Shown piece after piece: positions 2,102-24,499 of a stretch of DNA of 28,627 bases. Origin of the DNA: a virus; the IMG/VR virus record IMGVR_UViG_3300023180_000298, positions 1-28,627 of that record; one strand, 5' to 3'. Made by a program: the position numbers and the translations under genes. Position 1 is the first letter of the stretch. Each line of letters starts with the position of its first letter. The notes beneath the pieces are model-generated. The model was given only the letters and a program-made list of their open reading frames with translations. It made no database searches and was not told the DNA's origin.

Positions 2102-2494
2102 TTATTTAGAACGAACTTTAGCAAAATTGAGTTCTATGACATCAGATATCTCTTCTGGATAGATTTCATAAAGACCTCCGATAATCTGGTCATAGGTATA
2201 TTGTCTTCTATCTCTCCAGTGAAAGTTGATACCACGAAAACCCCAAGAGAAGACATCAGTCACACCCACAAGAGGATGTTGGTCATATGCTCTTCCTGTT
2301 GTTTTGGCATCATAAAAGAAGGTGTAATATTTTCCGACAGATGCACTCTTCCCACCTTCATTTAGAACACTGATGAGTTCTGTCATAATATCATCAGCAT
2401 CTTCTGTTCCAATCAAATCACGAACAACACCACGCACACGATTTTCTTGATCGTCTGTTGGATTTCTTCTTTGTTTGAGAGTCTTTCTTGGCAT
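2102..2494 (-). CDS. Conserved-looking small protein of unknown function in the gp4-gp48 operon
   Basis: 130 aa. The N-terminus is basic (MPRKTLKQRR) and the rest mixed alpha/beta. The most distinctive stretch is GKYYTFFYDAKT, then YDQHPLVGVTD and GFRGINFHWRDRRQY, rich in aromatic residues, histidine and arginine. No catalytic motif is evident and I do not recognise a named family. It lies between the head-completion nuclease gp4 and gp48; its ATG overlaps the gp4 stop codon by one base (TAATG), so it is almost certainly translated with gp4 as a late product. The context suggests a role in head or tail completion or a minor virion protein. That is inference from position only. Confidence 0.7.
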   Translation of the reverse strand: MPRKTLKQRRNPTDDQENRVRGVVRDLIGTEDADDIMTELISVLNEGGKSASVGKYYTFFYDAKTTGRAYDQHPLVGVTDVFSWGFRGINFHWRDRRQYTYDQIIGGLYEIYPEEISDVIELNFAKVRSK

Positions 2495-2931
2495 TACTTA
2501 ATACCGAGTTCGTTTTCTGTGAGAACTTTAAACTCATAACCACGATCTAAACACCATTCTTTGGCAGCATTCCATTTTGCCTGATTTTTGGCATACTCAA
2601 CAACTTCATAGATATAACCCTTTGTCTTTCTCTTTTGGACTTTGGGTTCAATACACTGCTTATATGGTTTAATCTCAATAATCATTTTTTTAATCTTACC
2701 ACCCTTTTCTTTTACTTTAATATAAAAGTCTGGAAAATATCTATGATAACGATTGTCGATAGGAGATCTGTAGGGAACGATTATTTCTTCACTCCCCCAC
2801 TCTAAAATGTTTTCATTATTATCACAATAAACCATAAATTTTCGCTCCCAGAGAGAACGATAGATTATGTTTGTTGAATCACCTTTGTATTTTTTTGGAT
2901 ATGAAGGTTGGTATTTTCCCTTATATGACAT
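2494..2931 (-). CDS. 4: Head completion protein gp4 (nuclease fold)
   Basis: 145 aa, close to T4 gp4 (also called gp50). gp4 finishes the packaged head before tail joining. The sequence shows a restriction-endonuclease-like core: the N-terminal YRSLWERKFMVYCD with a helix-borne Glu, then SEEIIVPYRSP, then the acidic residue in YFPDFYIK, and the E-x-K of MIIEIKPYKQC, which together form a PD-(D/E)XK-type site. The last third is a helix followed by a strand (CLDRGYEFKVLTE). It is the first gene of the leftward operon, starting at the edge of a divergent late-promoter region. Confidence 0.87.
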   Translation of the reverse strand: MSYKGKYQPSYPKKYKGDSTNIIYRSLWERKFMVYCDNNENILEWGSEEIIVPYRSPIDNRYHRYFPDFYIKVKEKGGKIKKMIIEIKPYKQCIEPKVQKRKTKGYIYEVVEYAKNQAKWNAAKEWCLDRGYEFKVLTENELGIK

Positions 2932-2972: not shown

Positions 2973-3785
2973 GTGCCAACACGTAAAAAGATATCACAAT
3001 TCAAACCACTTATTACAGATCTTGCTCAAACATCACATTACCAAGTTATCTTTGGTGGACTGAATGGTCCTTTAATGTCTTATCTAGATCAAAGAGGAGT
3101 TGATACAAAATTTATAACTGAAAGTGCTGGATTGTTATGTTCTTCTGCATCGATTCCAGGAAGTTCACTGGCAACCGCAGATATTAATGGTAACTTTATG
3201 GGTGTGCAGGAAAAAATGGCACATACCAGAATCTTCACTCAAATGCAGTTAGAGTTTTATGTAGATTCTGATTATAGAATGATTAAGTTTCTAGAACACT
3301 GGATGGAATTTATTGCCAATGGTTCCACATCTTCTCTTGGTGCTCAATCCCCAAACTATTACTATAGGATGCGGTATCCTAGTCAATACAAATCAAATTC
3401 AACCAAAGTCATAAAGTTTGACAAAGATCATAGAAGAGAATTGCAATATAATTTTATTGGATTATTTCCAATTAATATGTCATCAGTGCCAATACAATAT
3501 GGATCTTCTGATATATTGAAGGTTAGTATATCATTTAATTACGAGCGATATATTCCTGGAAAAATCTCAAGTAAAGATCAAAAGGGTGGATCTGATAATA
3601 ATCGAGGTCAAAGTAATAAAACTCCTTTACCACAGAATGAAAATGGTAGATTCTTGGGATCACCACAGGCAAAAACTTTCCTAGGAGAACCTTTGAATTC
3701 TCAACAAACATTGGATGAATTGTATGAAGCTGGACGTTCTGGTAAAATAAAGAGTGCATCTCAATTCACTGGACCACTTCAATAG
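2973..3785 (+). CDS. 54: Tail tube initiator, gp54-like
   Basis: 270 aa. T4 gp54 joins gp48 to start polymerisation of the gp19 tube. The core (residues about 20-195) follows the tube-protein pattern: HYQVIFGGLNGP, LLCSSASIPGSSLATADI, EKMAHTRIFTQMQLEFYVD, MIKFLEHWMEFI, NFIGLFPINMSSVPIQYGSS and VSISFNYERY. This parallels the gp54/gp19 order of a long loop, an EFYVD strand, a helix and a closing beta pair. The C-terminal 70 residues are polar and probably disordered. Translation starts at GTG, with AAGG eight bases upstream. A gene for the main tube protein is not in the window. The exact name could be another gp19-fold member. Confidence 0.7.
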   Translation: MPTRKKISQFKPLITDLAQTSHYQVIFGGLNGPLMSYLDQRGVDTKFITESAGLLCSSASIPGSSLATADINGNFMGVQEKMAHTRIFTQMQLEFYVDSDYRMIKFLEHWMEFIANGSTSSLGAQSPNYYYRMRYPSQYKSNSTKVIKFDKDHRRELQYNFIGLFPINMSSVPIQYGSSDILKVSISFNYERYIPGKISSKDQKGGSDNNRGQSNKTPLPQNENGRFLGSPQAKTFLGEPLNSQQTLDELYEAGRSGKIKSASQFTGPLQ

Positions 3786-3823: not shown

Positions 3824-4543
3824 ATGCCTTTACCAAAGATTGCAACGCCAACTTATGAGTTGGAACTTCCTTCTACAAAAAAGAAAATAAGATATAGACC
3901 TTTTCTAGTTAAAGAAGAAAAAGTCCTTATTATTGCGATGGAATCCGAAGATCAGAAGCAGATTACAACCGCAATTAAAACTGTTATTGGTAATTGTATT
4001 CTCACGAAAGGAATTAAAGTAGATCAATTATCTACTTTTGATATTGAATATCTTTTCTTAAATATTAGGGGAAAATCTGTTGGTGAAACAGTAGAAGTTT
4101 TGATTACTTGTCCTGATGATGGAGAAACACAAATTCCAGTGACAATTGATCTTGATGCAATCAAAGTTCAAACTGATCCAGAACATACTAGAGATATTAA
4201 ATTGGATGATAGTTTGACGATGAGAATGAAATATCCTTCTTTAGATGAGTTTATTAAGAGTAATTTTAGTATTGATGGTAACGTTGGAGTTGATGAATCA
4301 TTCCAGTTGATCGCATCTTGTATTGAGCAAATTTATAATGAGGAAGAGTCTTGGAGTTCTTCTGATTGCACAAAGAAAGAAATGGTTGCATTTGTTGAAG
4401 AGTTGAGTTCAAAGCAATTCAAAGAAATCGAAAGGTTCTTTGATACTATGCCAAAACTTGCTCATACTATTAAAGTTACTAATCCAAATACTAAAGTTGA
4501 AAGTGAAGTTTCTTTGGAGGGACTTTCTAGTTTTTTCGTATAG
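3824..4543 (+). CDS. 26: Baseplate hub assembly protein, gp26/gp51 family (zero-frame product)
   Basis: 239 aa. The protein matches the T4 baseplate family that includes gp26 and gp51: the N-terminal YELELPSTKKKIRYRPFL and VKEEKVLIIAME, then ILTKGIKVDQLSTFDIEYLFL, a Cys-containing strand pair around LITCPDDGE, and a helical C-terminal half ending SSFFV. Members are hub components or hub-assembly factors. By position, just upstream of two tape-measure-like proteins, it corresponds to the tail-assembly chaperone slot of other phages. The last four sense codons lie on a slippery T TTT TTC heptamer followed by a strong stem-loop, so a fraction of ribosomes probably read into the following frame to make a product of about 300 aa. 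Confidence 0.75.
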   Translation: MPLPKIATPTYELELPSTKKKIRYRPFLVKEEKVLIIAMESEDQKQITTAIKTVIGNCILTKGIKVDQLSTFDIEYLFLNIRGKSVGETVEVLITCPDDGETQIPVTIDLDAIKVQTDPEHTRDIKLDDSLTMRMKYPSLDEFIKSNFSIDGNVGVDESFQLIASCIEQIYNEEESWSSSDCTKKEMVAFVEELSSKQFKEIERFFDTMPKLAHTIKVTNPNTKVESEVSLEGLSSFFV

Positions 4544-4572
4544 GTATGGCGCACACTGATCTAGCGTCATAC
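4531..4572 (+). promoter_or_regulatory. Probable -1 programmed frameshift signal at the end of the gp26 gene
   Basis: Three parts line up. The slippery heptamer T TTT TTC occupies 4531-4537 in exactly the zero-frame phasing needed for tandem slippage. Six bases follow. A hairpin then forms between 4544-4552 and 4564-4572 (nine pairs, one G-U, loop of 11), with a possible extra G-U pair. The -1 frame has a stop at 4528-4530, directly before the heptamer, and then stays open to 4725; the zero frame stops at 4541-4543. The hairpin also buries the ATG at 4546. Confidence 0.72.
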
Positions 4573-4725
4573 TATAAGATAAACTTTGCCCTCATGCAGC
4601 ATCATAAATATTCATTAACAGAGTTGGAAAATATGATACCCTGGGAGAGAGAAGTTTATCTCACTCTATTGCAACAATATATTGAAGAGGAAAACTTGAA
4701 GCAACAACAGAAAAACGGCATGTAA
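4546..4725 (+). CDS. Short frame downstream of gp26, probably a frameshift extension (T-like domain)
   Basis: 59 codons from ATG, in the -1 frame relative to gp26. The product is mostly helical (LASYYKINFALMQHHKYSLT, then LENMIPWEREVYLTLL, then a Gln/Glu-rich tail). It could be translated on its own, but its ATG lies inside the left arm of a stem-loop and has no clear ribosome-binding site. Reading through the T TTT TTC slip at 4531-4537 joins it without interruption to gp26 (codon 238 followed by R-I-G and then these 59 residues, about 300 aa in total). This mirrors the G/GT tail-chaperone arrangement of lambda, placed just before the tape-measure genes. The WEREVYLTLL helix recalls chaperone T-type segments, but I cannot verify homology. 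Confidence 0.7.
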   Translation: MAHTDLASYYKINFALMQHHKYSLTELENMIPWEREVYLTLLQQYIEEENLKQQQKNGM

Positions 4726-6582
4726 ATGGCAAAATTAAATGCTTCAAAACTTACCAACAGAGATGTCCTCGTAACTGGTGTCAATCCATCTACGGGGGAA
4801 TATCTTTCTGCTGCCCAAAGAAAAGCATTATTTAAAAAGCAAAAGATAACTTCAAATCAAGTTTTTAGAAAACCAGGAGCACTTGTAAAAGTAGGATCAT
4901 CCACAATTACTCCTGATATTGATGTTAATGTTCTAAATGTCAGAGTTGTTGCCGTAGAAAAGCAGGTTTCTTTTCTGGCAAAGGTATTAGATAAAGAAGC
5001 AGAATTAGAGAAGAAATCGCAAAAAGATTATGAGAAGAAAGCATTACAACAGGAAGAGAAAAAATTAAGGTCAGGCGAAGAAAAGCGATTAGAAAAAAAA
5101 TTATCTGATAGATTAATATCACCAGTCAAGTCTGTTGGTAAAAAGGCTGGTGGAATACTTGGAAATTTAATGGAGTTCTTCGCAACTCTGTTTCTTGGGT
5201 GGTTAACAAATCAAGGTATTCTTGCATTTGAAGCAAATTCGGAAGGAAATACTACAAAACTGGAAGAAATTAGAGATAGGGTACTTAAAGACCTAGCGAT
5301 TGTTGGTGGCATATTTGCAATACTCAATGGTGGAATATTTGGTATTCTTGGAATTATTGGTGCTATTACTGCCAGGATTCTTACCAAACCATTTAGAGCA
5401 TTAATCGATGCATTTAGAGGAGGAGGAAACCAAGGTGGAGGAGGAAACCAAGGTGGAGGAGGAAAGACAAATCAACCAAAACCGAATCCAGATGGTGTTC
5501 GAAGTGTTGGTGTTACTCCTAGAGGTGGGAGTAGGATACCAGGAGCACAAGGATCACCAGCAGGAAGGTCTACTTTTGATTTAGAGCAAGCAAGAAGAAC
5601 AACAACCCAACAAAATATGATGAGGAATGATGGACCAAAAGGTCCATTTGATATGATTAAAAGGTGGATTAGAGGTAAGTTAGAACAGAATAGACATGTA
5701 GGTAAGGGTAAACATATTGTTAGAATTTTAGATGGAGCAGTAAAAACTTTTAATTGGTTTTCTAAACTTCCTGGATTCAAACAAATTTTCGGTGTTATAC
5801 GAAGTGTAATTAATTTTGTTACAAATCCAAAATCCGCCCTTGGAAATATATTCAAAAAAATGACAGGGAGTGGTAAAGGTGGAGGATTAAAACTTTTAAG
5901 AATCCTTCAACCTCTTTTATTTGCTCTTGCTATTAGAAACAGAGCACAAGCAGGAATGTCTCCAGCACAGGCAATTATTGGTGGTTTATTTCCTCTTGCT
6001 GGTAGTATTGCTGGTGGTGCTCTTGGTGGAACTATTGGTGCTGCTGGCGGACCTTTAGCATTTTTTGGTGCTCTTGGTGGATCTTTCCTTGGTGGTATGT
6101 TAGGTGAGCAGTTAATGGGAGTTTTGGATAATTTTTGGACACCTAACAGAGGGTCTTGGGATAATTTTGCACCTTTTAAAGCAATAAATGAATCAGTTTA
6201 TGATTTGCAAAGTGGAGATAATGCATTTGCAAAAGGTTTACAGGCAATGTTCCCTTATGAAGGAACAGAAACATATAAACAATCTAAACAATCAGCACAA
6301 GTAGCAGCACCATCAACTTCACCAGTTACACCTACACCAGAACCTACACAATCTCCTTCAGCATCTATAAGTTCTCCTTCTCCAAGATCTTCAATACCAG
6401 GACCAATGACTGGTGGTGGAAATACAACGGTGATTTATAAGAAAATAGGATCAAGAGGAGGGGGAGGTGCAGTGCCTTCAAGATCTTCTAAAGCAGCAAC
6501 TGATGTTCCATTGATTGCCTCCGGAAACCCAGACAATTTCTACACAATGTATTCTCAAATAGTCTATAATGTGGTGAACTAA
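4726..6582 (+). CDS. Tape-measure or baseplate-hub-like structural protein
   Basis: 618 aa, starting directly after the preceding stop. The order of parts is: N-terminal globular stretch; a charged coiled coil at about 75-130 (KEAELEKKSQKDYEKK); a hydrophobic motif at 143-163 (LMEFFATLFLGWLTNQ); a long hydrophobic Gly/Ile segment at about 190-218; a Gly/Asn repeat at about 231-246; a second Gly/Ala-rich hydrophobic block at about 415-465; and a Pro/Ser/Thr-rich linker at about 530-575. Coiled coil plus membrane-active segments between the tail-chaperone-like gene and the gp27-like hub is the profile and position of a tape-measure protein such as T4 gp29. No direct sequence motif of gp29 is visible, so the role is inferred. 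Confidence 0.6.
   Translation: MAKLNASKLTNRDVLVTGVNPSTGEYLSAAQRKALFKKQKITSNQVFRKPGALVKVGSSTITPDIDVNVLNVRVVAVEKQVSFLAKVLDKEAELEKKSQKDYEKKALQQEEKKLRSGEEKRLEKKLSDRLISPVKSVGKKAGGILGNLMEFFATLFLGWLTNQGILAFEANSEGNTTKLEEIRDRVLKDLAIVGGIFAILNGGIFGILGIIGAITARILTKPFRALIDAFRGGGNQGGGGNQGGGGKTNQPKPNPDGVRSVGVTPRGGSRIPGAQGSPAGRSTFDLEQARRTTTQQNMMRNDGPKGPFDMIKRWIRGKLEQNRHVGKGKHIVRILDGAVKTFNWFSKLPGFKQIFGVIRSVINFVTNPKSALGNIFKKMTGSGKGGGLKLLRILQPLLFALAIRNRAQAGMSPAQAIIGGLFPLAGSIAGGALGGTIGAAGGPLAFFGALGGSFLGGMLGEQLMGVLDNFWTPNRGSWDNFAPFKAINESVYDLQSGDNAFAKGLQAMFPYEGTETYKQSKQSAQVAAPSTSPVTPTPEPTQSPSASISSPSPRSSIPGPMTGGGNTTVIYKKIGSRGGGGAVPSRSSKAATDVPLIASGNPDNFYTMYSQIVYNVVN
5419..5465 (+). repeat. 18-bp in-frame tandem repeat coding for a Gly/Asn/Gln linker
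   Basis: Two complete copies and one partial copy of an 18-bp unit (GGAGGAGGAAACCAAGGT) encode GGGNQG repeats inside the 618-aa protein. The copies are identical, suggesting recent slippage. It probably acts as a flexible linker of variable length. Confidence 0.85.
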
Positions 6583-6583
6583 A

Positions 6584-8212
6584 ATGGTACTACCAGCAGT
6601 TGCAGGAGCAGCATTACGTATAGGATCAATGTTTGCCAGAGGAGCAAAATCTGGCGGTGGAATGTTGAGAAAGGCAGTTTTAAAAAGAACAAAAGTAAGA
6701 AGAGAAAATATTGCCAGAAAAAAAGTTTTAGATAAAAAGGTAATAGAGAAAAGAAGAAGGAAGAGAAAAGAATCTTTGTTGGAAGCAATGAAGAGTAAAG
6801 GAAAATCTGGAATAAGTACGGTCACGGATCCAGCTAAAGGTATTTTTCAAAGAGTATTAGAATTTGTTGGCATTTTATTCATTGGTTGGTTAGTAAATAA
6901 TTTACCAAAAATTATAAAATGGATAAAGGATCTAATAGAAAGAATAAAACGTCTTATCAATGCCATACAAAGTTTTATTGACAATCTAGGCAAATGGTTT
7001 AATTCTTTTGGATCTGTATTTACAGGATTTCTTGACAATATGAAAAACTTCGATTTTACCGATCAATCTGGTAAAATCAAAAAAGCAATGGAAGGAATGG
7101 ATAGTGCATTTAAGGGAATGCAAAATGATATTAATAATGCCACCGGTGCAGTTACTGGTCCAGTAGGTGCTGATGCATCTGCTGGTGCTGCATCAATAGA
7201 TGATCCAAATGCAAGGGCACTACTTAATGCGATTGCAGAAGCAGAAGGAACTTCTGGATATCCAAATCAAGGATATAATACACAATTTACAGGAACACAA
7301 TTTACAGATCTTTCAAAACATCCCGAACAATTAAGATCTGGTGGTGGTTATACCTCCGATGCTGCAGGAAGATATCAATTTTTAAGCACTACTTGGAATA
7401 GTGTGATGGGTGGTGCAATGACACCGGAAAGGCAAGACATGGCAGCACTTAAACTTGCTGCTCGTCGGGGAGTTGATATAAAAAATGGATTATCTATGAA
7501 TGAAATTTATAAGTTGGGTGGAGAATGGGCATCTATTGAAGGTGGACCCAATATGAGAAAAGGTGGTTCTTATGGTGGTCAGGCAAAATATAGTGCAGAA
7601 AGTTTTCTGCAAATGTATCAAAAATATGGTGGAAAAGTTGAAGGTGGTAGTGGAGGAAGATATGGAAGTGGTGGTGGTGGAAATGTTACCGAATATCTTA
7701 CAGGAGACAGAGGACATCCAAATTTTGAATATAATGGACACGGAAGACAATCAAATTATCATGATCACATTGCATTTAGAACAGTTCAAGATAAAGAAAG
7801 AGCAAAAGCGGCTCTACGTGGAGCTGGTATACAAATAGGTAGTGAATTTAGACCAGGAGATGATGGATGGCATGGAAAAGACTTAGCAATTGATATTCCT
7901 GGAGCACAATGGGGTGGAAGTGGTGCGATTGGACAACGAGAATTTAATGGTTCTGCAAAAGTAAGACAAGTATTAATCAATGCAGGATTTGGTGGAGCAG
8001 GTCTAGGTCATGGAACAAATGCAATTTCAAGAGTTCCTGGAGTATCCATGGATCTTGGTTATTCTTCCGGACCACAAAACATGATTATAGTTCTTGAAGA
8101 AGAGGCACCAGCACCTATGATGATGGGAGGATCTAGCAAAACTTCTCCTGTAATTGTCTTGTTAAATAGTAGTGTAAAGAAACAACTTCTAACATCATTA
8201 GCATATACTTAA
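6584..8212 (+). CDS. Tail/hub protein with a muramidase-like domain
   Basis: 542 aa. Residues 30-70 are very basic. Residues 87-107 (VLEFVGILFIGWLVNN) repeat a motif of the preceding protein. Residues about 210-345 resemble the lambda-type lysozyme fold: LLNAIAEAEGTSGYPNQGYN with a candidate catalytic Glu221, QFTDLSKHPEQ, and AAGRYQFLSTTWN. Residues about 385-490 form a second domain with HDH, a run of RPGDDGWHGKDLAIDIPG and GQREFNGS, which looks like a metal-type peptidase or other wall-directed domain, not identified further. The C-terminus has an acidic patch and a Met/Gly run. The protein probably rides in the tail and locally opens peptidoglycan, a job T4 gives to gp5. It starts 1 base after the previous stop. 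Confidence 0.65.
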   Translation: MVLPAVAGAALRIGSMFARGAKSGGGMLRKAVLKRTKVRRENIARKKVLDKKVIEKRRRKRKESLLEAMKSKGKSGISTVTDPAKGIFQRVLEFVGILFIGWLVNNLPKIIKWIKDLIERIKRLINAIQSFIDNLGKWFNSFGSVFTGFLDNMKNFDFTDQSGKIKKAMEGMDSAFKGMQNDINNATGAVTGPVGADASAGAASIDDPNARALLNAIAEAEGTSGYPNQGYNTQFTGTQFTDLSKHPEQLRSGGGYTSDAAGRYQFLSTTWNSVMGGAMTPERQDMAALKLAARRGVDIKNGLSMNEIYKLGGEWASIEGGPNMRKGGSYGGQAKYSAESFLQMYQKYGGKVEGGSGGRYGSGGGGNVTEYLTGDRGHPNFEYNGHGRQSNYHDHIAFRTVQDKERAKAALRGAGIQIGSEFRPGDDGWHGKDLAIDIPGAQWGGSGAIGQREFNGSAKVRQVLINAGFGGAGLGHGTNAISRVPGVSMDLGYSSGPQNMIIVLEEEAPAPMMMGGSSKTSPVIVLLNSSVKKQLLTSLAYT

Positions 8213-12165: not shown

Positions 12166-12882
12166 ATGGATGCAATTTTAGATAAACTTAAAGAATTAAT
12201 TGGTCTACCAGTTGGACCAAAATCTGGAATTAGAAAGTTCCAATATCTTGACACAAGATATAGAGGAACCGTAAGTGTAAGTGGACTCCATGTGTCTGAA
12301 GGATTTTCGGCACAACTGGGAGAAAGTATAATGTGTGGAACAAAGTTCCTCATACCAAATCCTTTTTCACCAAGTAAAGCAGCACTTCCACCAAATATTA
12401 TTGCAACACCACTTTCTTATCTTTTAAATTTTGGTGGCGTTAATACAACGGTAGCTTCATCTTTAGGTGGTACATCTTCTATTTTTGGTAAGAATTATCT
12501 TTTAGGTGATACGATCATTGGTGGTAATTTGAATGTAGTTGGTGTGGTAACTATTAATGGCAAAAATTTAGAAGCAGAACTTGCTCTTGGAAAATCACTA
12601 CCATCATCAGATGAAAGACTTAAAAAGAATATACATACAATTACAAATCCCATTGAAAAGGTAACCGCATTAAGAGGTGTCACTTTCGAGTATAAAGAAA
12701 GTGGACAAAAACAAATTGGATTTATTGCTCAAGAAGTTGAAAAAATTATTCCTGAACTTGTTGGAGAAAATCCAGATGGTTATAAAGGTGTCCAATATCA
12801 AAATGTTGTTGGACTTTTAGTTGAGGCAATTAAAGAACAACAAAAACAAATTGATGAATTAAAGAGACAAATAAATGGCTGA
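12166..12882 (+). CDS. Structural protein with C-terminal S74 intramolecular chaperone
   Basis: 238 aa. Residues about 147-238 form an S74 (endosialidase-type) chaperone: SSDERLKKNIHTI with the Ser/Lys pair used for self-cleavage, KQIGFIAQEVEKIIPELV, and the closing helix LVEAIKEQQKQIDELKR. In known members the domain drives trimerisation of a beta-rich fibre and then cuts itself off. The N-terminal 145 residues start with a helix, then strands (TVSVSGLHVSEGF), a Pro-rich part, and a small GDTIIGGNLNVVGVVTI beta-helix turn. Coming directly after the beta-helix spike piece, it may cap or fold the spike or attach a fibre to it. The end overlaps the next gene by 8 bases. Confidence 0.78.
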   Translation: MDAILDKLKELIGLPVGPKSGIRKFQYLDTRYRGTVSVSGLHVSEGFSAQLGESIMCGTKFLIPNPFSPSKAALPPNIIATPLSYLLNFGGVNTTVASSLGGTSSIFGKNYLLGDTIIGGNLNVVGVVTINGKNLEAELALGKSLPSSDERLKKNIHTITNPIEKVTALRGVTFEYKESGQKQIGFIAQEVEKIIPELVGENPDGYKGVQYQNVVGLLVEAIKEQQKQIDELKRQING

Positions 12883-14408: not shown

Positions 14409-14612
14409 ATGAGCAACACCGAATGCGTTCAAGGCATCGTGATTGACGTTTGCACCCGATCCTTCCTCCTCTTGAGCGATGAGGGCAATGAAAAGATGGT
14501 TGAGTGTGAAACCGTAAACGAGTTCATGAACGTTCTTGAAGTTGTGACTGCTAATCTTGACGAGGATCAAATCGAGTATGCAGATCTTGCAGTTCAGGGA
14601 GAAGAGTATTAA
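14409..14612 (+). CDS. Small acidic cyanophage-type protein of unknown function
   Basis: 67 aa (MSNTECVQG..., then IVIDVCTRSFLLLSDEGNEK and TVNEFMNVLEVV, acidic C-terminus). The frame is open further upstream to an ATG at 14334, but that start lies inside the LamG gene and before the promoter at 14356-14384; with transcription starting near 14391 only the ATG at 14409 fits. It looks like a small beta-sheet followed by one helix. Codon use is more GC-rich than in the late genes on either side, as for other early genes in the window. No function recognised. It is coupled to the next gene by a TAATG overlap. Confidence 0.72.
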   Translation: MSNTECVQGIVIDVCTRSFLLLSDEGNEKMVECETVNEFMNVLEVVTANLDEDQIEYADLAVQGEEY

Positions 14613-14785
14613 TGGAGGTATTTACAGTGAAAGAATGGGAAGAAAATTTTGATTCTCTTCTTGAAAGAGTAGAAAAGGGAGAAACACTTGGTATTATGGG
14701 AGATGATGGTAAGGCAGCAGTTATGATGCCCGCAGATGATGAACTTATCCGAATATACACGGAGAACAATAACGAAGCTCAGTAA
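14612..14785 (+). CDS. Phd/YefM-like antitoxin-type protein, solitary
   Basis: 57 aa (MEVFTVKEWEENFDSLLERV, EKGETLGIMGDDGKAAVMMP, ADDELIRIYTENN). The order strand, helix, ERVEKGET turn, strand, K-AAVMMP strand is that of the Phd/YefM DNA-binding fold (compare the family pattern of a Leu-rich helix, then V..GE...I, then G....V.MP). Members repress their own promoter and neutralise a toxin, but no toxin gene (Doc, YoeB or RelE type) lies next to it, and the C-terminal toxin-binding part is almost absent. It may act as a small repressor of the promoter at 14356 or as a phage-borne antidote to a host toxin. Its ATG overlaps the previous stop by one base. Confidence 0.65.
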   Translation: MEVFTVKEWEENFDSLLERVEKGETLGIMGDDGKAAVMMPADDELIRIYTENNNEAQ

Positions 14786-15535: not shown

Positions 15536-18500
15536 ATGCCTCTGAATAAGTTAGACAACTTTTTAAAGAACACTGAAGGTCGTATTTTATATGTAAGTCC
15601 AGCAGATATTGACTCCACAGATAGCATCCTGAACACTGGTAACTCTCTTGCCAGACCCTTCAAGACTATTCAGAGAGCACTTATTGAAGCCGCGAGATTT
15701 TCCTATGTAAAAGGATCTAGTAATGATCAGGTAGAAAAGACTACTATTCTTTTGATGCCTGGTGAACACGAGATTGATAATAGACCTGGATGGACTCTAT
15801 TTGATGATGCAGGAACTCCAAAGATCAAAAGACCAAATGCAATATCTTCGGAGTTAATACCTCCCGATTTTGCACTTACATTAGAATCTAATTTTGATTT
15901 AACACAGTCAGAAAATCATCTCTTTAGATTTAACAGTGTAAATGGTGGTGTAATTGTTCCAAGGGGAACTTCAATTGTTGGTTTAGACTTAAGAAAGACA
16001 AAAGTTCGTCCAAAATATATTCCAAATCCGACTGATCCATCTGTACCATATTCTGCTATCTTTAGAATTACTGGTGCTTGTTACTTCTGGCAGTTCTCTA
16101 TTTTTGATGGAGATGAATTTGGACTTGCTTATACCAAAAATGATAATTTCGACCTTATCAACAGATCGTCTCCATCTTTTTCACACCATAAACTAACAGT
16201 ATTTGAATATGCTGATGGTGTGAATGAAGTCCTATCTTATGGACTGACAGATCTCCAGATGTACTATGCTAAACTTTCTAGAGCATATGGTACTGGATCT
16301 GGTAGAGATATTGATGATAAGTTCCCAGGCAAACCAGATGGATTTAATGCTAGAAGACCAGAATATGAGATTGTTGGTGCCTTTGCAGATGATCCATTAA
16401 AGATTACAAGAATTGAAGCTGGTGTTGGAGGTGTTGTAACAGATAGAGTTACGGTAACCACCAATCTTCCTCATGGTCTTAATGAAGGAACACCAATTCG
16501 TATTAGTGGAGTTGGTGATAATTATTATAACATTACGACCAAAGTAACAGAAGTAGATGATAATGATCCAAACATATTCTATTACACATTATCGGATACA
16601 AATAATGGTCTGATTAGTACCAACCAAGGTGTACTGATTGATGGAGACGAATTTGTAACTGTAGAGACGGATACTGTATCTGGTGCTTCTCCATATATCT
16701 TCAACTGCTCCATGCGTTCTGTATGGGGCATGAATGGTATGCACGCCGATGGAAGCAAGTCAACTGGTTTCCGTTCAATGGTTGTTGCACAGTTTACTGG
16801 TGTATCATTACAAAAAGATGATCGTGCATTTGTAAAATACAATCCGACTGCGAGAGATTATAGTGACAATCTCCCAATCGTCTTGGAAAATGGAACAAAG
16901 TTATCACAAAACTCTTCATCACCTTCTACAGTATATCATTTAGATCCTGATGCGATTTACAGAAGCGGATGGGAAACAACACACATTAAAGTTTCTAATG
17001 ATGCTTTCATCCAGATTGTATCTGTATTCGCAATTGGATATAATAAACACTTTTCTGCCGAAAGTGGTGGAGATGCTTCCATTACCAACTCAAACTCAAA
17101 CTTTGGTCAGATTTCACTATCTTCTGATGGATTTAAGAAAGAAGCATTTGATAAAGACAATAAAGCATTTATAACACATATCATTCCACCAAGAGCAGTA
17201 TCTGCAGAAGAGCAGGAAATTGACTGGTTATCAATTGATATTGATAAAACATTAAGTATAAACAATAACACACGTCTTTATCTTACAGGATTTACTTCTG
17301 AAGATACAGTACCACCGATTCTTACTCAAGGATATAGAGTTGGTGCAAAGGTATTAGATAAACTTTTTGTGAGGTTGAATACTGTTGAGTATTCTGCCAG
17401 TATTTTGATGTCAGATGGAGTATCAAGTTCCGCAAAAGAGTATTCTGTAGGAACTCCATCATCAAATATATTTACTGTTGCTGCATCAGGAACCCATACA
17501 ATAACAACTGGTGAAAAAGTAATCATCATTAGTGATGATGGCAATCTTCCAGAAAATTTAGAAACGAATGTAGTATATTATGCAATTGTTCCAAATTCAA
17601 ATACATTAAAACTTGCTGCATCTGAAAATGATGCAAACAATGATGATCCAATTACCGTAAATGGTGGATCAAATCTTCGAATTTTGAGTAGATCTTCAGA
17701 TAAAGAATCTGGAGATCTTGGATCGCCAGTTCAATGGGATAGTGCAGCAGGTGCTCAACAGTGGTATATTAAAACTAATGCTTCTAGTGACATCTTTACA
17801 AATCTATCTGGATTGACTGGTCCAACAGAACCAACTTATATTAAGAGAATAGAAGATTCTAGAGGTGTTGATGAAAAAATCTATAAGGTAAGAGTTGTAG
17901 TTCCTAAAGAACTTCAAAATGCAAAAACACCAGAAACTGGATTTGTCATTCAAGAATCGAGTTCTACTGGTGTAAGAGGAACTGATGGAACTGATTTCAC
18001 ATTAACTGGCATCACAACCAGCGAATATGATTACAATAGAAATCCAAGATTTATTAGTACATGTTCATTCAATAACCCAACCGCAACAGTAGTCACAGAA
18101 CTTCCACACAATTTGACCGTTGGTGATAATCTTATTATTAGAAATGTAACGGATAGTTTAATTAACACTGGTGTAGGAACATTTAATTCTGGATATAATG
18201 GAACTTTTGAAGTTTCATCTATCGTTGATGATCTTACATTTACTTATGATATTTCAGATCAAACTCCTGGAGCATTTACAAATAATACTGGAATAAGAAG
18301 CGATACTTTACCAAGATTTGAGAGAAATGATCTCAAGTCAAACCTTTTTGTTTATAGAAATGAAGTAATTCAGGAATATATTGATGGAAAGCAGGATGGC
18401 ATCTATCATCTTTATATTATAAATGCTGATAATGCAGTTTCTGAAGAGTTTACTAGCATCAAGTATGGTCAAAATGTTGTTGATTTCTATCCACAATTAG

Positions 18501-20638
18501 ATAGAGATAATGTTGATGATAACCCTGGACCATCTAGATCTTATGCAAAAGTTTCTCCTCTTGGAGAAGTTGTAACAAATGATTTGAAGAAGAGTGTAAC
18601 CAGAGAAACAATTGATAAATTATCCACAAAACTTGGTTTTGGATTGAATATTTCTTCTGTCAATAATACTACTTTGGGTGTTAGCACGATCACATTTGAA
18701 AGAAGACATGGATTAAATGGAATTGTGGAGGCATCTATATCAAATGCTGGTAGTGGTCTTCCGAATGGTAATTATAATAATGTTAGACTTTTAAATAACG
18801 GAACAAATGTTTGGGATGGTGCAACCGCAAACATTTTTGTTTCTGGTGGATCAGTAGGTGTTGTCACTATTGCATCGCCAGGTTCTGGATATAGTGCTGG
18901 CGAAGTATTAGATATTGATGGATTCGGTACAGCAGAAGTTACAATTTCTGCTGCTGGCATTTCAACAGCAGTCGGAAGTGTAGTTCAATTTACTGGCGCC
19001 GGTACAACATCTGATACTTATCATCGTATTATTTCGGTTGGTTCTACTAATCAAATTTCTGTTGCTAGAACAACTGGAGATACTTTAATTACATCTGATC
19101 AATATGCAATTGTTGTTGGACCTTCATTGTCATTTACTTCATCTTCATCTGGTGGAGTAACAACTATTGATGCATCTGGTCATGGTCTTTCCAAAGGTAA
19201 TAGAATTAGAATTCTGGATGATAATCACAATAATCAGGGAGACTTTATTATTGCCACTAGAGTTGGGGTCAATACATTCACCATTGCGTCAGATTTAAAT
19301 ATAAATTCTGGTTATGTTCTAAAGCATGGGTTATCTGCAAATGGAGAAACATCTAATATCAATGTAGAAAACATTGGTGCTAGAGGAGTCACAGTTTATG
19401 ATAAAGAAACTCTTATTCTTGGTGAAAATCTTGACAAAGATGATTATGAATTCAAAGTAACTGTTCCAAATTCTGGTATTGGAACAATGAGAAGATTCCC
19501 ACTCGGTTCTTATATTCAGGTTGATTCTGAAATAATGAGAGTGTCAGAATCAACTTTACAAGGTGCATCTAATGATAAGTTACGAGTTATTCGTGGTGCT
19601 CTCGGAACAAGAATCGCACTTCATGATTCTGGAACTATTATCAGAAAAATAAAACCACTTTCTATTGAATTCCGTAGACCATCAATTATTCGTGCATCTG
19701 GTCATACCTTTGAATATCTTGGTTATGGACCTGGTAACTACTCAACTGGTCTTCCACAAGTTCAAGTCAAAACTCTTTCCGAAAGAGAAGAGTTTTTGGT
19801 TCAGGCACAAGAAAGATCTGCTGGCATTGCAGTTTATACTGGAATGAACAATAGAGGAGACTTTTATATTGGAAACCAGAAGAAGTCTTCTGCAACTGGA
19901 GAAGAACTCACATTTGATACACCAATACCAACTATCACTGGCAACGAAACTTCTAGATTGAGTGGTGTTTTTGATGAAATTACTGTTAAAGAAAGAATAG
20001 TTGTTGAGGGTGGTGATTCTTCACTGATCTTGTCACAGTTTGATGGACCAGTGACATTTAATGGTGAAGTAAGAAACACCAATAAAGTCAAGATAACCAA
20101 TGAGACTGATTCTTCCAGTGTAACAACTGGTGCATTGATAGTTAATGGTGGTATCGGTGTTGGCAAAACAATTATTTCAAACAATATTAAGGTTGGAACA
20201 GTTCATCTCAATTCTTCTGCGGATGAAGTAACAACAACATCAGGAAATCTAAAACTTAATGCCATTTCTGGGTCACTTGTTGCTATTCAGACTAATACTA
20301 CAATTACTGGCATCTTAAGTGTAACTGATGACATTACTGCTTTCTGGTCTTCAGACGAAAGACTGAAAGATAATATTGAAAGAATTGATGATCCACTCGC
20401 AAAAGTTCTCAATCTTTCTGGTAATACATTCCGTTGGAATGCGAACTCTAACAAGTCTGGTCATGATGTTGGTGTAATTGCCCAAGAGGTTCTTTCAGTT
20501 CTTCCAGAAGCAGTTGTAACAAGAGATAATGGATACCTTGCAGTCGATTATCATAAGATTATTCCACTTCTTGTAGAGGCAATTAAAGAACTCTCTGATA
20601 AGGTTGAATCACTTGAGCAGAAACTACAAGATAAATAA
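15536..20638 (+). CDS. Giant virion structural/tail-fibre protein with C-terminal S74 chaperone
   Basis: 1700 aa, the largest product here. The N-terminus (LDNFLKNTEGRILYVSPADI, then NSLARPFKTIQRALIEAARF) opens a parallel beta-helix-type region running to about residue 540. Several copies of a small beta module follow, each with an HGL or HNL turn: LPHGLNEGTPIRISGV, LPHNLTVGDNLIIRNV, RHGLNG and GHGLSKGNRIRILD, usually followed by FTY or FTI strands. A GSGY-type repeat (about 1100-1140) resembles one in the OB-fold spike protein. Residues about 1604-1700 form an S74 domain (WSSDERLKDNIERIDD, VGVIAQEVLSVLPEAV, helical end). S74 predicts trimerisation with self-cleavage near Ser1605-Ser1606. It is probably a long fibre or baseplate-attached structural protein. 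Confidence 0.8.
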   Translation: MPLNKLDNFLKNTEGRILYVSPADIDSTDSILNTGNSLARPFKTIQRALIEAARFSYVKGSSNDQVEKTTILLMPGEHEIDNRPGWTLFDDAGTPKIKRPNAISSELIPPDFALTLESNFDLTQSENHLFRFNSVNGGVIVPRGTSIVGLDLRKTKVRPKYIPNPTDPSVPYSAIFRITGACYFWQFSIFDGDEFGLAYTKNDNFDLINRSSPSFSHHKLTVFEYADGVNEVLSYGLTDLQMYYAKLSRAYGTGSGRDIDDKFPGKPDGFNARRPEYEIVGAFADDPLKITRIEAGVGGVVTDRVTVTTNLPHGLNEGTPIRISGVGDNYYNITTKVTEVDDNDPNIFYYTLSDTNNGLISTNQGVLIDGDEFVTVETDTVSGASPYIFNCSMRSVWGMNGMHADGSKSTGFRSMVVAQFTGVSLQKDDRAFVKYNPTARDYSDNLPIVLENGTKLSQNSSSPSTVYHLDPDAIYRSGWETTHIKVSNDAFIQIVSVFAIGYNKHFSAESGGDASITNSNSNFGQISLSSDGFKKEAFDKDNKAFITHIIPPRAVSAEEQEIDWLSIDIDKTLSINNNTRLYLTGFTSEDTVPPILTQGYRVGAKVLDKLFVRLNTVEYSASILMSDGVSSSAKEYSVGTPSSNIFTVAASGTHTITTGEKVIIISDDGNLPENLETNVVYYAIVPNSNTLKLAASENDANNDDPITVNGGSNLRILSRSSDKESGDLGSPVQWDSAAGAQQWYIKTNASSDIFTNLSGLTGPTEPTYIKRIEDSRGVDEKIYKVRVVVPKELQNAKTPETGFVIQESSSTGVRGTDGTDFTLTGITTSEYDYNRNPRFISTCSFNNPTATVVTELPHNLTVGDNLIIRNVTDSLINTGVGTFNSGYNGTFEVSSIVDDLTFTYDISDQTPGAFTNNTGIRSDTLPRFERNDLKSNLFVYRNEVIQEYIDGKQDGIYHLYIINADNAVSEEFTSIKYGQNVVDFYPQLDRDNVDDNPGPSRSYAKVSPLGEVVTNDLKKSVTRETIDKLSTKLGFGLNISSVNNTTLGVSTITFERRHGLNGIVEASISNAGSGLPNGNYNNVRLLNNGTNVWDGATANIFVSGGSVGVVTIASPGSGYSAGEVLDIDGFGTAEVTISAAGISTAVGSVVQFTGAGTTSDTYHRIISVGSTNQISVARTTGDTLITSDQYAIVVGPSLSFTSSSSGGVTTIDASGHGLSKGNRIRILDDNHNNQGDFIIATRVGVNTFTIASDLNINSGYVLKHGLSANGETSNINVENIGARGVTVYDKETLILGENLDKDDYEFKVTVPNSGIGTMRRFPLGSYIQVDSEIMRVSESTLQGASNDKLRVIRGALGTRIALHDSGTIIRKIKPLSIEFRRPSIIRASGHTFEYLGYGPGNYSTGLPQVQVKTLSEREEFLVQAQERSAGIAVYTGMNNRGDFYIGNQKKSSATGEELTFDTPIPTITGNETSRLSGVFDEITVKERIVVEGGDSSLILSQFDGPVTFNGEVRNTNKVKITNETDSSSVTTGALIVNGGIGVGKTIISNNIKVGTVHLNSSADEVTTTSGNLKLNAISGSLVAIQTNTTITGILSVTDDITAFWSSDERLKDNIERIDDPLAKVLNLSGNTFRWNANSNKSGHDVGVIAQEVLSVLPEAVVTRDNGYLAVDYHKIIPLLVEAIKELSDKVESLEQKLQDK
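20630..20637 (+). promoter_or_regulatory. T4-type late promoter overlapping the stop of the giant fibre gene
   Basis: GATAAATA immediately followed by A; the stop codon TAA is 20636-20638, so the box runs through the last two sense codons and into the stop. The next gene starts at 20656. Confidence 0.65.
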
Positions 20639-22463: not shown

Positions 22464-23045
22464 ATGGATTTTGATGTAGCAAGTGACCGTGATTTTTACT
22501 ACATGCCAACAGAAATTGATGAGGATTTAGTAAAAATTATCAAGTCCCAAATGAAAGACTCTGAACTAGAAGAGTCTTTCATTCACCATCCTGATGGTGA
22601 GTTAAAACCAGATCACAAATATAGAAAGTCTAAAAATTCTTGGATAGCAACAGATAATTGGATTTCGGGATTGATGTTCAATTTGATCAACATTGCTAAT
22701 AATGATTTTTATAAATTTGACCTAACACAATGGTCAGATAGAATCCAATATACTGTTTATGATGGAGAAAATTCACATTATTCTTGGCATCAGGATACCT
22801 CTATTTCTTCATTCAATAGCAATGAATGTAGAAAATTGAGTATAAGTTTACTACTTTCTGATCCAGATGATTATGAAGGTGGAGAACTTCAACTTCTTTA
22901 TGGTGGCAATAGAATGGTCACACTCAAACCACCACTTGGTGGTGCAGTTATTTTTCCATCTTCAGTCAGACATAGAGTTAGAAAGATAACTTCTGGTAAA
23001 AGAGAATCGTTAGTTGGTTGGTATGGAGGTCCATTTTGGAGGTAA
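22464..23045 (+). CDS. 2-oxoglutarate/Fe(II)-dependent oxygenase (prolyl-hydroxylase type)
   Basis: 193 aa. The double-stranded beta-helix core shows the iron triad H109-x-D111 (SWHQDTS) and H170 (SSVRHRV), plus the 2-oxoglutarate-binding Arg180 (GKRESLVGWYGG). Other family marks are YTVYDGENSHYSWHQD, KLSISLLLSDPDDYEGGELQ and AVIFPSS. These enzymes hydroxylate protein side chains or small molecules using O2 and 2-oxoglutarate. Similar genes are frequent in cyanophages, with unknown targets. Here the 3' end overlaps the halogenase start by 28 bases, so both are made together and late, inside the fibre module. The motifs are complete, so activity is expected; the substrate is unknown. Confidence 0.9.
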   Translation: MDFDVASDRDFYYMPTEIDEDLVKIIKSQMKDSELEESFIHHPDGELKPDHKYRKSKNSWIATDNWISGLMFNLINIANNDFYKFDLTQWSDRIQYTVYDGENSHYSWHQDTSISSFNSNECRKLSISLLLSDPDDYEGGELQLLYGGNRMVTLKPPLGGAVIFPSSVRHRVRKITSGKRESLVGWYGGPFWR

Positions 23046-24499
23046 AAAAGTTTATTGTCCTTGGTTCTGGAACCGCTGGTTTAATATCAGCAGCATTTAT
23101 CAAAAAATGGTTTGGTCCTAGAGTAGATGTAACAGTTTATTATGATGGATCACGAAAAACAATTGGTGTCGGAGAAAGTACAACGCCAAGTATACATCAA
23201 TTTATTAATTTTTTAGGAGTAGATCCTTATTCACTAATAAGAGAACTAAATGTCACTGTGAAAACTGGAATAGATTTTAAAGATTGGATCCCCGGAGAAA
23301 GTTTCTTTCATGGATTTAATCAAGTCAATAGTAATGGAATATATGAATGGTCTAGTGCATGTCATTCTATACTAAATGATTGTTATAACGGTGGAACTCT
23401 CTTCAATGAACCATCATCCACTCTACCAGATGAACATTTTCAGTTTGGATTTGCTTATCATTTAGATACCAAGGATTTTTGCAGATATATTGAAGATAAG
23501 ATTAAGGATGAGGTTACATTCATTGATGATGTTGCCGAAGAAGTAAAATCTGACGGTAAAAATATTCAGAGCATAACATTCAGAGATAGTGGAAAAGTCA
23601 CTGCCGATTATTATATTGATGCATCTGGATTCAGTGCCGTTCTTCTCAAGCATTTAAATCCAAAGTGGAATGATATGAAGAAATGGTTACCAATTGATAG
23701 AGCAATACCACAACAAGTTCCCTACGAATTTGATAAAGTGCCATCACATACAGTTGCACAGGCAACAGAAAACGGTTGGATATGGAAAATTCCTATCGGA
23801 AATAGATATGGAACTGGTTATTTGTATTCCTCCCAGTTTACCACAGATGATGAGGCAAGAAGTAAATATAATGATTGGTTGGTGGAAAACTTCAATACCG
23901 AACTCAACACCGATAGAGTAATTAAATATAATCCTGGGTACTATGAAGATTATTGGATTGGAAATTGTATTGCTATTGGTCTATCAAGCGGTTTTGTAGA
24001 ACCATTAGAATCTACAGGAATTCATATTATCATAAGACAACTTCATGATTTTGTTTACCTAAACTCCAATCTAAAAAATCTAAAATATAATACAGCACTG
24101 GCAAATGAAAAGAATAAGCAACTTTATGTGGATATAGTTAATTTTGTGTGCCTACACTACAATACAAATAGGACTGATTCTAAATTTTGGAGATATATGA
24201 CCAATAATAAAAAGGATTGGGTTTCCAATTTTGAAGAGAAATGTAGAGAAGATTTCATTGATACGAGATCATTTAGAGATAACATGGATTTTTCATTCTG
24301 GTCTTTGGATAGTTACATTCAAGTTTCAAATGGTCTTAATATGTTTAGGAAAGAATCTATTCAAGAATATTTGGATAATAAGTTTAATAAGCAACAGATT
24401 GTAGACTTTGCTATTGAGCAATATAATTTTATTGAACAGATTAGATCAGAACATCAAAATATATCACATAAGAAGTTTTTAGACCAAATCCATAAATAA
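23018..24499 (+). CDS. Flavin-dependent halogenase (tryptophan-halogenase family)
   Basis: 493 aa. Diagnostic motifs are all present: GSGTAG (residues about 16-21) for FAD; GVGESTTPSI (50-59); the catalytic lysine Lys82 in NVTVKTGIDFKDW, at the place of PrnA/RebH Lys79; WIWKIP, the WxWxIP motif that distinguishes halogenases from monooxygenases; and FVEPLESTGIH, with the Glu matching PrnA Glu346. The enzyme makes hypohalous acid from reduced flavin, O2 and halide and transfers it through the lysine. A homologous halogenase from cyanophage Syn10 (VirX1) has been characterised, but natural viral substrates are not established. No flavin reductase is visible here. ATG at 23018 is inside the oxygenase gene; a GGAGGT sits at 23038-23043 but no standard start follows it, so the upstream ATG is kept. 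Confidence 0.9.
   Translation: MVWRSILEVKKFIVLGSGTAGLISAAFIKKWFGPRVDVTVYYDGSRKTIGVGESTTPSIHQFINFLGVDPYSLIRELNVTVKTGIDFKDWIPGESFFHGFNQVNSNGIYEWSSACHSILNDCYNGGTLFNEPSSTLPDEHFQFGFAYHLDTKDFCRYIEDKIKDEVTFIDDVAEEVKSDGKNIQSITFRDSGKVTADYYIDASGFSAVLLKHLNPKWNDMKKWLPIDRAIPQQVPYEFDKVPSHTVAQATENGWIWKIPIGNRYGTGYLYSSQFTTDDEARSKYNDWLVENFNTELNTDRVIKYNPGYYEDYWIGNCIAIGLSSGFVEPLESTGIHIIIRQLHDFVYLNSNLKNLKYNTALANEKNKQLYVDIVNFVCLHYNTNRTDSKFWRYMTNNKKDWVSNFEEKCREDFIDTRSFRDNMDFSFWSLDSYIQVSNGLNMFRKESIQEYLDNKFNKQQIVDFAIEQYNFIEQIRSEHQNISHKKFLDQIHK
24491..24498 (+). promoter_or_regulatory. T4-type late promoter overlapping the halogenase stop codon
   Basis: CATAAATA, with the halogenase TAA at 24497-24499. It lies 15 bases before the adhesin ATG (24514), predicting a very short leader of about 9 bases. 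Confidence 0.6.

Follow-up and report, generated by a model that had tools for sequence, protein, structure and literature searches.

Among T4-like phages, whose tail assembly chaperone genes were named by Vladimirov, Gautam and Davidson in 2022, frameshifting is reportedly conserved in several groups, while T4 itself is said to use genes 26 and 51. As cited in PMC10885494, that study (Virology 566:9-15, PMID 34826709) found, in place of frameshifting, a pair of genes in some T4-like phages, one of them short and the other long and fused; as cited in PMC12846349, it found poly-T slip signals in TAC-N genes of T4-like phages. In phage lambda, a short protein (gpG) and its -1-frameshifted long form (gpGT) are encoded just before the tape measure gene, and a 2016 paper described this G-T frameshift as widely conserved in long-tailed phages "except T4" (PMC5009743). 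For T4, gp26 and gp51 appear among the hub assembly chaperones in the table of a review, according to which assembly requires gp51 and finished particles do not contain it (PMC3004832).

The DNA analyzed here (the window; 28,627 nt, positions 1-28,627 of IMG/VR record IMGVR_UViG_3300023180_000298) originates from an ocean virus, most likely with cyanobacteria as hosts. With an estimated probability of about 90%, its gp26 locus would encode a tail assembly chaperone that is made in two lengths from one gene by -1 frameshifting. The features of this locus and its neighbors are:

2973-3785, + strand: tail tube-like protein, directly upstream of gp26 (PF23849, E = 2e-23; phrog_45, E = 2.5e-42)
3824-4543, + strand: gp26-family protein of 239 aa, putative short form (TAC-N, "G" role; PF12322, phrog_150)
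4528-4530, + strand: TAG stop shutting the -1 frame just 5' of the slip site (read from the sequence)
4531-4537, + strand: slippery heptamer T_TTT_TTC, zero frame (sequence, relatives, synonymous constraint)
4537-4725, + strand: -1-frame extension, 62 codons from CGT plus stop (putative TAC-C, "T" role; phrog_634, C-terminus of phrog_150, T4 gp51)
4538-4543, + strand: 5-6 nt spacer that separates the slip site from the hairpin and contains the zero-frame stop TAG (4541-4543)
4543-4552, + strand: 5' arm of the predicted stimulatory hairpin, containing ATG 4546-4548 (fold, pair counts)
4564-4573, + strand: 3' arm of the predicted stimulatory hairpin (fold, pair counts)
4546-4725, + strand: mechanical ORF of 59 aa starting MAHTD, probably no independent gene (start codons in relatives)
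4726-6582, + strand: next gene, 618 aa, weakly tape-measure-like (phrog_1047, E = 1e-5; phrog_794 tape measure, E = 0.0024)
6584-8212, + strand: tail protein of 542 aa with a lysozyme-like part and weak tape-measure matches (phrog_17230, E = 2e-25; phrog_1535, E = 8e-4)

The gp26 gene is thus flanked by a tail tube-like gene on its 5' side and, beyond the -1 frame, by an ORF with weak tape-measure matches. An initial annotation of this DNA had placed the locus directly before tape-measure-like genes. The adjacency held, with the 618-aa gene adjoining at 4726, and in most relatives the ORF downstream of the -1 frame likewise abuts or overlaps the -1 stop; the tape-measure identity was less clear, with only weak matches to PHROG families and none in a Pfam profile search of the 618-aa gene.

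Several other genes in the window were recorded. Adjoining the tail genes on the opposite strand, 2494-2931 (-) encodes a protein of 145 aa whose N-terminal domain resembles the TnsA endonuclease (PF08722, E = 4e-22); it is probably a head completion nuclease of the T4 gp4 type. A Peptidase_S74 (chaperone of endosialidase) domain was found at 12166-12882 (+; PF13884, E = 7e-18) and a similar DERLK...IGVIAQEV-type motif was readable at the C-terminus of the 1700-aa product of 15536-20638 (+), which suggests self-cleaving tail fibre chaperone domains in both. The 57-aa product of 14612-14785 (+) was weakly Phd/YefM antitoxin-like (PF02604, E = 1.3e-4, below the Pfam cut-off). A gene for a tryptophan halogenase family protein with a TTG start (23018-24499, +; PF04820, E = 1e-84) overlapped a 2OG-Fe(II) oxygenase gene (22464-23045, +; PF13640). 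Cyanophage Syn10 is known to carry a flavin halogenase, VirX1.

The final codons of gp26 (AGT TTT TTC GTA TAG, 4529-4543) place T_TTT_TTC 10 nt upstream of the gp26 stop and in canonical X_XXY_YYZ phase, the phase that the initial annotation had read. Its description of a -1 frame that is shut just upstream, by the TAG at 4528-4530, and then stays open for 62 codons was also correct: from 4537, the -1 codons read CGT ATA GGT ATG GCG ... (R-I-G-M-A-H-T-D...) and the stop ends at 4725. That this frame opens exactly at the slip site held for the window but not for most relatives, in which it is open from 22-40 nt before the gp26 stop. Since 63 in-phase X_XXY_YYZ heptamers occurred in the 8,868 codons of the window genes, a bare in-phase heptamer is common; the one in gp26 was the only one followed by a -1 extension of more than 28 codons. 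Predicted fusion-specific tryptic peptides of the long form are VESEVSLEGLSSFFR and IGMAHTDLASYYK, and independent initiation of the MAHTD ORF would yield the predicted N-terminal peptide MAHTDLASYYK.

Relatives gathered from viral contigs and named phages comprised 217 distinct genes. All 81 of the closest genes, including that of the window, had T_TTT_TTC at a distance of exactly 10 nt from the gp26 stop, while an in-phase T_TTT_TT[C/T/G] was present in 215 of the 217, mostly at the same distance. Pelagibacter and Methylophilales phage types carried T_TTT_TTT, 7 nt before the stop. Bearers of the heptamer included the named cyanophages S-PM2, P-SSM2, S-PRM1, ACG-2014b, and Syn10, as well as Methylophilales phage Melnitz-1, Pelagibacter phage HTVC008M, Vibrio phage nt-1, Aeromonas phage phiAS5, and Rhizobium phage RL38J1. 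Homologues without the heptamer, or with the short frame out of phase, had been named in advance as counter-evidence and were not the pattern. One of the two exceptions, contig gene L179, is interrupted by a premature stop in gp26, probably through a sequence error; the other, from Serratia phage phiMAM1 (Ackermannviridae), has G_GTT_TTC in place of T_TTT_TTC. In the phiMAM1 sequence (L095, 731-1660), a homologue of the short ORF follows the gp26 homologue in the -1 frame, unannotated, and the G_GTT_TTC at the end of the gp26 homologue is a possible second slip type.

Past the gp26 stop, the median open length among the 217 genes was 60 codons in the -1 frame versus 5 in the +1 frame. In the aligned genes, the codon for Phe237 was TTT in 209 of 209 and that for Phe238 was TTC in 201 of 209, whereas at eight other conserved Phe columns the commoner codon accounted for only 58-94%. 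The base before the slip was T in 209 of 209 genes, irrespective of whether the codon specified Ser, Ala, Asn, Asp, or Gly; elsewhere in the gp26 gene, only 33% of Ala codons end in T. The slip codons are thus constrained beyond their amino acids, with the wobble T and the two Phe codons after it nearly fixed. Judged by this conservation, which was decisive, the heptamer at the gp26 end is not a chance occurrence, and sequence evolution strongly supports a recoding step at this position.

The 9-bp hairpin of the initial annotation (4544-4552 with 4564-4572) was recovered, with one G-U pair, and folding added G4543-U4573 to give 10 bp and a predicted -14 kcal/mol (z = -3.8 for the 35-nt hairpin and -2.2 for 53 nt). 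The 6-base spacer was measured at 5-6 nt. When 164 non-redundant junctions were folded in 40-nt windows, the mean energy was lowest 0-6 nt behind the slip (-8.8 to -9.4 kcal/mol), compared to -1.6 to -7.7 kcal/mol in windows away from it. Energies of -6 kcal/mol or better were predicted for 118 of these 164 junctions, and of -8 or better for 97; in the other 46, over a quarter, the hairpin was weaker than -6 kcal/mol. Some lineages, including several found with the Syn10 gene, were nearly without a hairpin. L099, L102, L105, L121, and L156 combined an invariant slip with almost no predictable hairpin after it, and many hairpin-poor lineages had TAGCCCT or TAGCTCT right after the slip.

Compensatory changes in the stem, proposed by the initial annotation as a check, were found in part. 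In 58 sequences with an Ala codon (GCN) after the ATG, the silent third base of this codon covaried with the second base of codon 10, at which changes alter the amino acid (Glu, Ala, or Val): GCT-GAG occurred in 35, GCG-GCG in 10, and GCA-GTG in 8. These bases were paired in 53 of the 58 sequences, with five exceptions. On the gene tree, the two bases changed 9 and 8 times and the pair only 11 times; several changes therefore coincided. A test of phylogenetically independent pairs gave no significance and, with too few supported pairs, was underpowered. Across 95 sequences, the helix exceeded all 500 shuffles, as well as every slid control, in cells paired, double-changed cells, and covariation score. 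RNAalifold returned no single consensus RNA structure for 50 aligned junctions, because at least two hairpin shapes and hairpin-poor lineages are mixed among them. The predicted hairpin would be a frequent, replaceable stimulator and is not part of the universal signal, which leaves the slip site as the invariant part. It is conceivable, though doubtful, that the hairpin has a double role, both stimulating the slip and hiding the in-frame ATG; the C-terminal domain would then be made only as a fusion, at a fixed short-to-long ratio.

Profile searches assigned the gp26-family protein of the window to PF12322 (T4_baseplate; E = 6.8e-77, profile positions 2-218 of 219) and phrog_150 (E = 4.2e-84). 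T4 gp26 (208 aa) and T4 gp51 (249 aa) both match PF12322 end to end and match each other, which identifies them as paralogues. The approximately 48 residues by which gp51 extends beyond gp26 matched the -1 frame of the window (BLASTP, E = 3e-6); an hhalign comparison of the -1 extension with gp51 gave E = 5.9e-5, with homology to gp51 residues 209-245, while no match was obtained with T4 gp26. The extension further matched phrog_634 (E = 8e-28), a family it has in common with the gp51 tail, and the C-terminus of phrog_150. In PHROG 150, gp26 accounts for the first 232 positions and the -1 frame matches positions 239-278; T4 gp51 covers both. For the -1 domain, no credible family was found in Pfam or NCBIfam, and its predicted model was of moderate confidence (pLDDT 73).

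The two arrangements are distributed across different phages. T4, Krischvirus MIZ3, Aeromonas phage 25, and Gaprivervirus PSD2001 encode the short and the long form in separate genes on opposite strands; in Kyanoviridae, Vibrio phage nt-1, Aeromonas phage phiAS5, and Rhizobium phage RL38J1, a single gene carries a slip site. Among the cyanophage records listed, there was one such place per record and no second copy of gp26 or gp51.

Public records of relatives show the -1 frame either as a separate gene, gp51, as in many phages, or as unannotated sequence (S-PRM1, ACG-2014b, Syn10). If the 59-aa ORF were indeed an independent gene, with its own ATG coupled to the gp26 stop two bases upstream and the heptamer incidental, the ATG found at this codon in the window and in 126 of 214 relatives would be explained and the 2-nt gap would fit coupling. 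However, other relatives have CTC, CTA, CTG, CTT, TTG, or TTA in place of that ATG and, within the first 15 codons of the -1 frame, 61 of 214 lack any ATG and 42 of 214 lack ATG, GTG, and TTG alike, yet the protein is conserved. Shine-Dalgarno-like motifs preceded 7 of 153 such ATGs versus 76 of 214 gp26 starts, and the ATG of the window (4546-4548) lies buried in the 5' arm of the predicted hairpin, where the initial annotation had located it. The synonymous constraint on the heptamer and the occurrence of the -1 domain in T4 only as the tail of gp51 are also difficult to reconcile with an independent gene, making this explanation very improbable. Because many relatives have no start codon there, frameshifting would be the main way into the -1 frame. 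The second frame is thus mostly not a gene in its own right, as far as start codons can tell, and additional initiation may occur in phages that have the ATG. A fused product could also arise from slippage of RNA polymerase, for which a run of six T is in principle sufficient, instead of from ribosomal slippage. This run is only six long and, with a second Phe codon that is TTC and not TTT in 201 of 209 genes, ends where the ribosomal heptamer ends; moreover, neither the phase nor the T ahead of the first Phe codon varies, and ribosomal frameshifting characteristically comes with a structure 5-6 nt downstream. Transcriptional slippage was consequently judged extremely unlikely.

A different objection accepts the frameshift and regards gp26 as a structural hub protein, with the long form as a minor structural variant. 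Databases name the family "baseplate hub," as is the case for most of the broad set of phage proteins retrieved when the predicted gp26 model (pLDDT 86) was compared with viral models, and older T4 genetics put gp26 in the hub (PMC3004832). The same review nevertheless tabulates gp26 and gp51 as hub assembly chaperones, of which gp51 is missing from finished particles. The gp26 model showed no fold match to known chaperones, with no useful match in the PDB (best Foldseek E 0.5, best Z 2.5), and profile comparison of either part with lambda gpG or gpT detected no similarity; for proteins so divergent, such missing similarity is uninformative, and the case for a chaperone role therefore comes from gene order, architecture, and T4 genetics. 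A short and a long protein with a shared N-terminal part, made by frameshifting or from two genes, are the pattern of tail assembly chaperones, so that a purely structural role appears unlikely.

Slip conservation, homology to the gp51 tail, and missing start codons together support the originally proposed -1 frameshift that joins gp26 to the next frame. In the proposed mechanism, most ribosomes would stop at the gp26 stop (4541-4543) and release the short form, while a minority would slip back one base on T_TTT_TTC, helped in the window phage by the hairpin that starts 5-6 nt downstream. Slipped ribosomes would read 62 more codons and yield a gp26-gp51 fusion. The short form, in excess, and the frameshifted long form would act as a pair on the tape measure and tube proteins. 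If the lambda gpG/gpGT pair is a guide, the N-terminal part common to both forms would bind the tape measure protein, and tail tube subunits would be recruited by the C-terminal part. A search of the literature for cyanophage ribosome profiling found none.

A G/GT-type tail assembly chaperone pair, gp26/gp26-51, is supported as the best reading of all data, with its biochemical roles taken by analogy with lambda (PMC5009743). The corresponding proposal of the initial annotation for gp26 of T4-like cyanophages was reached independently and appears correct; its core, as far as the citing papers convey it, was already published in 2022. The present analysis adds scale, synonymous constraint, missing start codons, and evidence on hairpin covariation. 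Cyanophages of this type abound in the sea. Their -1 frame is mostly annotated as "gp51" or missed, so that correcting this annotation would give the right protein products. If the hairpin is indeed swapped for other shapes or lost while the slip remains invariant, these phages would form a natural series on the need for a stimulator in bacterial -1 frameshifting.

Relative to lambda, whose slip is G_GGA_AAG, the slip here is T_TTT_TTC and the proteins are without detectable sequence similarity. The system of phage Adele (Vandenendeviridae/Andersonviridae; PMC12846349) shares a -1 frameshift, a poly-T signal at the TAC-N end, and a contractile tail, but belongs to other phage families and uses a GTTTTT motif. 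With T4, the likeness extends to the proteins themselves, since PF12322 covers both gp26 and gp51 at full length and the gp51 tail matches the -1 extension of the window; this comparison of T4 genes 26 and 51 agrees with Vladimirov et al. (2022) as far as that work is cited in the papers above. The difference is that T4 has two separate genes on opposite strands, with gp51 as a built-in long form for which no frameshift is needed. The T4 hub-assembly helpers gp26 and gp51 would accordingly be the short and long forms of one chaperone, encoded by two genes in T4 and, as the sequences suggest, by a single gene in the window phage. This phage family would then show a recoding signal replaced by gene duplication, or the reverse.
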